A DNA stretch of 34,396 nucleotides from Candidatus Omnitrophota bacterium (GTDB lineage: Bacteria > Omnitrophota > Gorgyraeia > Duberdicusellales > 4484-171). Below, piece by piece: positions 6,752 through 8,047 of the stretch (positions are counted from its first letter, which is position 1; the number at the start of each line of letters is the position of its first letter). The stretch lies in assembly GCA_028703535.1 (NCBI GenBank), contig JAQVMQ010000010.1, positions 1-34,396 on the forward strand, written 5' to 3'. Below the pieces are notes generated by a model, which saw only the letters and a list, made by a program, of their open reading frames with translations, had not been told where the DNA came from and did no database searches. The position numbers and the translations under genes were made by a program.

Positions 6752-6946
6752 ATGAAAAAGGAAATAGTTAATAAAAATAAATGGTTCAAACCCGAAATAT
6801 CAAAAATAAAACTCAATCCGGAGCAAGCAATTTTAAGCTGTTGTGATGCTTTAACTCGTGTTGCAGTTGTTGCTCCATGGAATCTTACACAGTGCGAAAA
6901 TGCTGTGACACAGTGTGGCACGTATTCAGAAAGTGTTGCAAGTTAA
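6752..6946 (+). CDS. Small Cys-containing peptide, possible RiPP precursor
   Basis: The product is 64 residues. An N-terminal lysine-rich segment leads into KWFKPEISKIKLNPEQAILS (10-29), followed by CC at 30-31, a hydrophobic stretch with VAVVAPW, then C48 and C55 and a Ser/Gly-rich end. The pattern W-KPEI--I-LNPEQA-LS-C resembles, from memory, leaders of short peptides associated with radical-SAM maturation. No maturase, PqqD-like recognition protein or transporter is in the window, so this is an orphan candidate. The ribosome-binding site is weak. The composition and clear leader/core division support a real gene, but the evidence is modest. Confidence 0.55.
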   Translation: MKKEIVNKNKWFKPEISKIKLNPEQAILSCCDALTRVAVVAPWNLTQCENAVTQCGTYSESVAS

Positions 6947-7263
6947 TGTTTTTATTTAATTTTTTAGGTTTTAACAAAGATGTTTCTACAAAATCTTCTA
7001 ATTAGCTATTAGCCAACAGTTGTGAGCGAAATTGATGTAAAAATAAGAAATGCTAGTAATACAAAAGTCTGAAAAACAATTTAGAAAAGAAAAAATAGAT
7101 AAACGCCAGCTATAAACTTCTTTTGTGATTACTCCCGGCTATCGGCAAGCACGATGACATTAGTATAATTGTCAGCAATATTGGTATAAAATGTAAAAAT
7201 GATTTTGCGGGTATAGCGAACGGAAAAAATCAAATAAAAATTAAAAAATAACATTTTAGTATG
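6947..7263. other. Gene-free gap before the repeat array
   Basis: AT-rich sequence with no supported gene or RNA. I see a short GC-richer patch near 7135-7155 (CTCCCGGCTATCGGCAAGC) but no defined structure. Confidence 0.5.
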
Positions 7264-7522
7264 TAAGATACTTCGTGGCCACGCTCAGTATCATTGAAAA
7301 TCGATGAGAGGCTAGATAAAAGTATTAAGCATAAGATACTTCGCGGCCACGCTCAGTATCATTGAAAATCGATGAGAGGCTAGATAAAAGTATTAAGCAT
7401 AAGATACTTCGTGGCCACGCTCAGTATCATTGAAAATCGATGAGAAACTAGATAAAAGTATTAAGTATAAGATACTTCGCGGCCACGCTCAGTATCATTG
7501 AAAATCGATGAGAAACTAGATA
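7264..7522. repeat. Tandem array of a 68-bp repeat, four copies
   Basis: Units start at 7264, 7332, 7400 and 7468 (exactly 68 bases apart); the fourth is incomplete and loses similarity after about 7522. Each unit contains GATACT...AGTATC arms (7267-7272 and 7287-7292 in unit 1) around a central CGTGGCCACG palindrome (7274-7283), then TCATTGAAAATCGATGA. Units differ at two sites: CGTGG in units 1 and 3, CGCGG in units 2 and 4; GAGAGGC in units 1-2, GAGAAAC in units 3-4. That pattern fits duplication of a two-unit block. The period is not a multiple of three and the units contain stops, so it is not a coding repeat. Function unknown. Confidence 0.93.
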
Positions 7523-7681
7523 TTTATCATTTTCAATGAAAAAATAGTAGAAAAAAACATTTAGCATGATATTATCTTCATTGGCTGTTTTATCTATAAA
7601 AATGTAAGCGGTTACAGAAAGCAGAGAGATAGTAAAACAACAATTTTGAAAGTATGTTATTATCTAGTTAAAGGGGGAAAT
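7523..7681. other. Gap after the repeat array
   Basis: No gene. ATTTTCAATG at 7529-7538 is the exact reverse complement of CATTGAAAAT at 7496-7505 inside repeat unit 4, so a 10-bp stem could close over the end of the array. ACATTT-AGCATG near 7557-7568 resembles ACATTTTAGTATG just before the array (7251-7263). Confidence 0.5.
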
Positions 7682-8047
7682 ATGAAGAAAAAAGAAGTAG
7701 AAAAAATAGAGGAAAGAAGACAGAACATACGAGTGAAAAAAACACTTTCTGTTGTTCAATGTGATTCTGAATATTTATTAGAGCATAATTATTTGAGTAT
7801 GGATATCTCAGAAAACGGGATCTGTCTGCTTTCCACTAATAGGATTGAAATAGGCGAAGATATTACTTTGGGTATTTATTTGCCGGAAAGTAAAATCCCT
7901 GTTGTTGCTACAGGAAGCGTTGTTCGCAGAAATGAAACAGGCGACGAGAAATATCCTTATCTTGTCGGTATACAGTTTACTCAAATAAATGATACAGATT
8001 ATGAAAGAATACAGGCGCACATAAGATATTATACTTTACAGGAATAA
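7682..8047 (+). CDS. Single-domain PilZ protein (c-di-GMP receptor family), copy 2
   Basis: The product is 121 residues from ATG 7682, preceded by AAAGGGGG; an in-frame TTG at 7646 has no such site. The motif RRQNIRV gives RxxxR, and MDISENGICLL gives DxSxxG, so both c-di-GMP binding halves are intact. Conserved strands follow (GSVVRRNE, YLVGIQFTQI). It ends with a helix (YERIQAHIRYYTLQE). It is more canonical than the PilZ protein at 6341 (DxS rather than NxS). It has no operon partner; partners are likely elsewhere, for example the pilus motor operon in this window (inference). Confidence 0.9.
   Translation: MKKKEVEKIEERRQNIRVKKTLSVVQCDSEYLLEHNYLSMDISENGICLLSTNRIEIGEDITLGIYLPESKIPVVATGSVVRRNETGDEKYPYLVGIQFTQINDTDYERIQAHIRYYTLQE

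Follow-up and report, generated by a model that had tools for sequence, protein, structure and literature searches.

A dispersed hairpin element located at gene starts in one order of Omnitrophota

Interspersed hairpin repeats of bacteria are usually treated as intergenic clutter. The BOX element of Streptococcus pneumoniae (boxA-boxBn-boxC) is dispersed, non-autonomous and modular, has a variable tandem inner module and a predicted RNA fold, is delimited by terminal inverted repeats similar to those of an insertion sequence (IS), is found near genes and can change the expression of the gene downstream (PMC3049150). Repetitive extragenic palindromic (REP) sequences, bacterial interspersed mosaic elements (BIMEs) and REP doublets forming hairpins (REPINs) are short dispersed palindromes that occur in tandem clusters and inverted doublets (PMC3116915, PMC3733652); a GTAG or CGTC tag marks REPs, and those with GTAG flank the gene of a REP-associated tyrosine transposase (RAYT; PMC3733652). 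BrickBuilt, a miniature inverted-repeat transposable element (MITE) of Porphyromonas gingivalis, has an internal minisatellite of a 23-nucleotide repeat and lies at 49–591 nucleotides from genes (PMC4596501). Here, we describe an element of about 75 nucleotides, designated E, which came to light through a tandem array of 68-base units in a contig of Candidatus Omnitrophota bacterium (JAQVMQ010000010.1, positions 1 to 34,396; this whole stretch of 34,396 nucleotides is referred to as the window). E is a dispersed structured element that was previously unlisted, and the array is one copy of it.

Distribution and fold of element E

A DNA search of the genome containing the window (1.41 Mb, 90 contigs) identified nine matches, eight of which lie outside the window. 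These copies follow a common plan, in which hairpin 1, whose inner stem varies and whose internal loop is a 2x2 TC/TC, is followed by stem 2 around a loop containing a conserved motif. A covariance model built from the nine copies (R1) finds 41 places in this genome at E-values up to 1, and has matches in 12 of 36 other genomes of the same family. Two further arrays, on C15, are among the 41 places; each has six units (5+1) and ends in one complete unit, as in the window. A second covariance model, R2, was built from 28 copies and matches 28 of the 42 genomes of the order. In a class-wide R2 scan, 29 of 384 genomes gave a match, 26 of them within the order, and the other three look different when read; a phylum-wide search agrees with the near-absence of E outside the order. 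Because the matches are nearly confined to genomes of this order, E is essentially restricted to one order of Omnitrophota. The genome-wide search proposed in the initial annotation of the array was the right test: dispersed copies were recovered in the same genome and across the order.

The weak R2 matches at loci outside the order (L246, L247 and L248) represent a different two-hairpin unit, GATCCTTCGGC..GCCTCAGGATC AAGAAAAAT...ATTTTTCTTG, which is either a distant cousin of E or an unrelated repeat. Rfam 15 has no match to E, either at the gathering threshold in the window or at E-values up to 10 in seven loci with copies. A group I intron (RF00028, 93.6 bits) is present in locus L129 (1712–1965, minus strand), about 130 nucleotides upstream of an E copy docked on tRNA-Gly.

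E folds into hairpin 1, stem 2 and a small inner hairpin. In a MAFFT alignment of 28 copies, 95.1% of the cells pair and 12 of the 21 pairs have changed on both sides; the covariation score is 0.466, compared with 0.173 for shuffled and at most 0.105 for slid pairings. Among 116 distinct copies, 94.9% of the cells pair, compensatory changes occur in 20 of the 21 pairs, and the score is 0.441 versus 0.162 when shuffled. These alignments show that the folded strand of E is conserved by covariation, which supports the initial suggestion of a structured RNA. The dinucleotide YC at the 3′-foot of hairpin 1 pairs not only within that hairpin but also with two bases after stem 2 (28 of 28 sequences, 13 double-changed cells). 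As a result of this dual pairing, GR, YC and GR vary together: among the 104 best rows, the combination is GG/CC/GG in 75 and GA/TC/GA in 6. On the element strand, the 116 distinct copies contain 84 G-U pairs versus 33 A-C oppositions, an excess that favors an RNA of that strand. In several of the folds, hairpin 1, stem 2 and the acceptor-stem of the tRNA abut without a linker.

Docking on gene starts and turnover of copies

The position of E relative to genes was read in 98 copies from relatives, together with their flanks. With no gap in between, E abuts the start of an intact tRNA gene in 53 of these copies and a Shine-Dalgarno sequence, with the start codon a few bases further on, in another 28; most of the remaining 17 meet truncated tRNA starts or contig ends. 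Docked copies lie in the sense direction of their genes, and this orientation is nearly constant. The docked tRNA isotypes include Ala, Asp, Gly, His, Lys, Met, Pro, Ser and Val, and the docked protein genes, which were identified by eye from the N-termini that they encode, include clpP, clpC, rpoA, nifU, tpiA, dapA, ribH, purM and those for L32 and an EF-G-like factor.

In the tRNA copies, the 5′-arm of stem 2 is complementary to its own 3′-arm and, in addition, to 1–6 nucleotides of the tRNA. The contact positions pair in 161 of 162 cases, compared with a mean of 56% and at most 68% when tRNAs of other isotypes were swapped in (1000 draws); the tRNA start was that given by ARAGORN, and locating the arm as the best window introduces a mild bias. 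For example, Gly copies present CCGC against GCGG, and His copies mostly CCAC against GTGG. The position of E and its pairing with genes suggest a movable RNA leader that may control downstream genes.

Two variants of this arrangement were observed. In six loci (L156, L227, L239, L193, L229 and L234), three parts come after E, in this order: a piece of a tRNA from its 5′-end (approximately 12–57 nucleotides), a second hairpin repeat, X, consisting of AATGAGACT, a variable stem and TAGTCGAATTRATCC, and the full tRNA gene; these tRNA genes carry duplicated 5′-ends. At tRNA-Met of G016 (L251/L296), a version of E without hairpin 1, consisting of stem 2 and the loop motif, docks on the tRNA; since this version still docks, stem 2 may be the minimal docking part.

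Comparison of close relatives revealed sites with and without E. In genus g17, E lies between a conserved promoter and tRNA-Met in G043, while G042 has the same promoter and no E; at tRNA-Ala(ggc), E is present in G016, present twice in G043 (once inverted) and absent from G042. In genus g4, E lies between the upstream gene and the GGAGG of clpP in two genomes (G048 and G049); in two others, G003 and G050, GGAGG is immediately preceded by ATTAA or ATTAAA. In all three cases, the 3′-arm of stem 2 is missing from the empty site. The copies at orthologous genes of genus g4 have a similarity of 0.808 (nine pairs), compared with 0.802 for between-genome pairs generally and 0.834 within genomes. Subtypes of E are mixed at these orthologous genes, many copies in G003 share a private variant, and the copy number swings within the genus (29, 17, 11, 5 and 3). 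The same genes nevertheless recur, a pattern suggesting that E was inserted or converted repeatedly at sites that it prefers. Some copies of E are nested, chimeric or inverted. At these gene boundaries, E has been gained or turned over, as is seen from the empty sites and from the mixture of subtypes at orthologous genes.

The array in the window

The array at 7264–7522 is the sole tandem array of the whole window (period 68, 3.8 copies, 96% matches, score 469; Tandem Repeats Finder, TRF), and a repeat search places its four units exactly 68 bases apart, as initially described. TRF returned the same span as the initial annotation, but unit 4 runs on to 7539. According to TRF and the repeat search, units 1 (7264–7331), 2 (7332–7399) and 3 (7400–7467), each of 68 nucleotides on the plus strand, comprise only the 5′-part of the element. 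Unit 4 (7468–7539, plus strand) is a complete element with a closed stem 2 and is matched by both covariance models (R1: 7466–7540, 91.8 bits, E-value 8.2e-15; R2: 72.7 bits, E-value 1.6e-13). The array is best seen as a locally amplified, off-gene copy of E, the 5′-part of which was expanded by tandem duplication. The variant columns are as first reported: positions 7276 plus 68n read T, C, T, C across units 1–4, and positions 7310–7311 plus 68n read GG, GG, AA, AA. The duplication of a two-unit block that was deduced from them fits the former column, but the latter requires an extra two-unit conversion or a parallel change, so that the history of duplication is not clean.

The array is built of palindromic units, as first noted. 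The GATACT/AGTATC dyad around CGTGGCCACG is present, but the conserved hairpin is not the perfect CGTGGCCACG palindrome. Covariation in relatives and the fold of unit 4 give the register GATACT-TC-GYG-GCCA-CGC-TC-AGTATC, with the 2x2 TC/TC internal loop and a 3-bp inner stem, for hairpin 1 on the plus strand at 7267–7292 (unit 1, where it reads GATACT-TC-GTG-GCCA-CGC-TC-AGTATC), 7335–7360, 7403–7428 and 7471–7496 (units 2–4). An RNA of the minus strand had been proposed because the inner stem was read in the wrong register. Read in the conserved register, the plus strand has a G-U pair in the T variants and a G-C/C-G pair in the C variants, and this, together with the excess of G-U pairs on the gene-sense strand and the sense orientation of docked copies, speaks against a minus-strand RNA.

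The remaining parts of the element, all on the plus strand, were assigned in unit 4. The TC (YC) dinucleotide at 7495–7496 has, as judged from relatives, two alternative partners, GA at 7471–7472 in the foot of hairpin 1 and GA at 7538–7539. The 5′-arm of stem 2, ATTGAAAAT (7497–7505), which is supported by covariation and by the fold, is complementary to the 3′-arm, ATTTTCAAT (7529–7537), which follows unit 4 and is missing from units 1–3; the loop between them (7506–7528) contains the conserved motif, M (..GAGAAACTAGATA.., alignments A2/A3). The GA at 7538–7539 occupies the GR position, which in relatives is the first GG or GA of the 5′-end of a tRNA or of a Shine-Dalgarno sequence. At 7540, no gene is docked on the window copy; the first gene downstream, which encodes a PilZ-domain protein (7682–8047, plus strand; PF07238, E-value 1.9e-14), begins about 142 nucleotides away. 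Upstream of unit 1, ATAACATTTTAGTATGTAA (7248–7266, plus strand) may be a degenerate tail of the M motif, given a weak resemblance to ..AATAACATTAAGTATAA, which is found upstream of hairpin 1 in relatives. The initial account of the unit was incomplete: it covered neither stem 2 with its 3′-arm, nor the docking at tRNA genes and Shine-Dalgarno sequences, nor the evidence of mobility.

The G+C content of 7264–7540 is 36.5%, versus 27% in both flanks, in line with the enrichment noted initially. The exclusion of clustered regularly interspaced short palindromic repeats (CRISPR) likewise stands: the units are contiguous, 96% alike over the full 68 nucleotides and without spacers. Eight promoter-like matches were found around the array versus 4.0 (standard deviation 1.8) expected, which is weak evidence, and no intrinsic terminator was found. 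A Mg-chelatase/ComM-like gene, with its best match (53% identity) in Omnitrophota, neighbors the array; most of its remaining top matches belong to the same phylum, which makes Candidatus Omnitrophota the probable affiliation of the organism. An open reading frame (ORF) for a Cys-containing peptide of 64 amino acids (MKKEIVNKNKWFKPEISKIKLNPEQAILSCCDALTR..) is located at 6752–6946 (plus strand) of the window; with similar ORFs in L007 and L009, it has a common KP.I..I.L...QAIL..C leader and resembles a family of precursor peptides of the kind known as ribosomally synthesized and post-translationally modified peptides (RiPP-like), while the ORF family has no match in NCBIfam.

Possible origin of E and comparison with known repeats

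The explanation that we favor, and consider reasonably probable, is that E is a non-autonomous, mobile hairpin element of the BOX/REPIN kind, which sits flush at gene starts and is co-transcribed as a leader, the array being a local amplification. E would spread or be exchanged within and between loci of the one order and settle flush against gene starts; from its sense position immediately before a gene, we infer that it is transcribed with that gene. Stem 2, extended by the YC:GR pairing, would then mask either the first bases of the tRNA, where RNase P cleaves, or the Shine-Dalgarno sequence at its edge; competition by hairpin 1 for YC would make them accessible again, so that E could act as a portable, BOX-like leader tuning the gene it precedes. 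A more ambitious version, in which E is a mobile cis-regulatory RNA that installs itself directly before genes, with an arm fitted anew to every target, and governs both the 5′-maturation of pre-tRNAs and the translation of mRNAs by a single principle, competition for the two G/R bases with which the gene begins, appears rather unlikely. The exact ends of E at tRNA position +1 or the Shine-Dalgarno sequence and its tRNA-matched arm make it testable how a site is chosen without a resident transposase, and whether non-autonomous repeats turn into leader switches. E would also provide one of the few cases in which bacterial tRNA genes have structured leaders, and a further RNA motif for a phylum that has seen few experiments.

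Several observations weigh against the favored explanation. The 116-copy alignment (A4) was fitted to the covariance model; the window copy and those at L098 and L113 are not positioned in sense before a gene; and transcription of E, as well as any effect on a gene, is deduced from sequence. The match of the arm could stem from quasi-palindrome correction or from insertion rather than from selection for a switch, and presence or absence could also come from loss plus gene conversion. In addition, no Y1_Tnp was found in six E-bearing genomes (G004, G015, G023, G042, G043 and G046), and the reverse transcriptase RVT_1 was found in only 4 of 37 genomes, incomplete assemblies limiting both negatives.

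No resident enzyme is implicated in moving E. Y1 transposases of the IS200/RAYT type are present in the genome of the window, but the readable flanks of their genes carry other palindromes; mobilization by a resident enzyme of this type was rejected on this ground and because Y1 is missing from the six E-bearing genomes, and mobilization by a resident reverse transcriptase was rejected because of the rarity of RVT_1. The palindromes that flank the Y1 genes at L011, L013 and L014 are near-perfect, belong to these genes (e.g., CCAACCAATTCCATCCCTGGGATGGAATTGG) and are unrelated to E.

The strong conservation of structure, the target-matched arm, the sense orientation, the enrichment at tRNA and housekeeping genes and the recurrence of the same genes in genus g4 would also fit an immobile cis-regulatory leader RNA of translation-related genes, riboswitch-like or protein-bound, that is inherited vertically, often lost and homogenized by gene conversion. 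We regard this as rather unlikely, marking it down because similarity among orthologous copies does not exceed that of random pairs; the exact empty sites seen when close relatives are compared, the swings of copy number in genus g4, the nested and inverted copies and the gene-less copies (window and L098) also argue against it. Those empty sites and nested copies, along with the subtypes and arrays, would fit a purely selfish DNA element of the REP/REPIN type, whose hairpins would have a role solely in transposition, as single-stranded DNA. The flush position would then be a target rule (GR at tRNA ends or Shine-Dalgarno sequences), and the arm match a product of insertion chemistry or quasi-palindrome correction. 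In favor of this reading, the YC:GR pairing is kept in gene-less copies; the copy at L113 adjoins a tRNA on the 3′-side, and there too the opposite strand starts with GG; and hairpin 1 resembles a palindrome (hpA) that lies upstream in inverse orientation, as in REPIN doublets. A purely selfish element is nevertheless quite improbable in our view, given the Y1 results, the nearly constant sense orientation and the one-strand excess of G-U pairs, a pattern that RNA, rather than DNA, would show. A neutral local tandem duplication, without relatives or structure, was reserved by the initial annotation for the case of no transcription, no other copies and no conservation. The array in the window docks on no gene and its four units did arise by local duplication, but dozens of relatives, dispersed in the genome and across the order with a conserved structure, leave this idea practically no room.

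The literature returned no matches for the CTTCG..CTCAG palindrome class and no such repeat for Omnitrophota. Gene-matched flush docking was likewise not found in the open-access texts consulted, and an earlier description elsewhere is possible. E resembles REP/REPIN repeats in its short palindromes, its dispersal, its tandem clusters and perhaps in inverted doublets (hpA versus hairpin 1), but it adds stem 2, the M loop and docking on genes. hpA, a palindrome of inverse design and different sequence, often lies just upstream of E, though not at all copies. The feet of hairpin 1 are TAAG-GCACTTCG.. and ..AGTGCC, with neither GTAG nor CGTC, and the readable flanks of the Y1 genes, as well as the genomes without Y1, give no sign of a RAYT partner. 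As for a MITE, empty sites define a 3′-boundary and the GR at both ends is compatible with a 2-bp duplication, while the 5′-end is not sharply defined. E is similar to BrickBuilt, a dispersed non-coding element that likewise has leader and tail parts and encloses a tandem array, and differs in that most copies in relatives lie at 0 nucleotides from a gene. The bcr1-type repeats of the Bacillus cereus group are mobile, as E probably is, and share with E a conserved RNA-like fold, with a different sequence and host; we know of no docking of these repeats to gene starts. E and BOX belong to different phyla and are likened by description: the flush ends at tRNA starts and the gene-matched arm are not reported for BOX, whereas modularity, dispersal and a predicted fold are common to both, as is a variable inner tandem module between fixed ends, which E displays in the window (3+1), in the two arrays of C15 (5+1) and in the arrays of G003.
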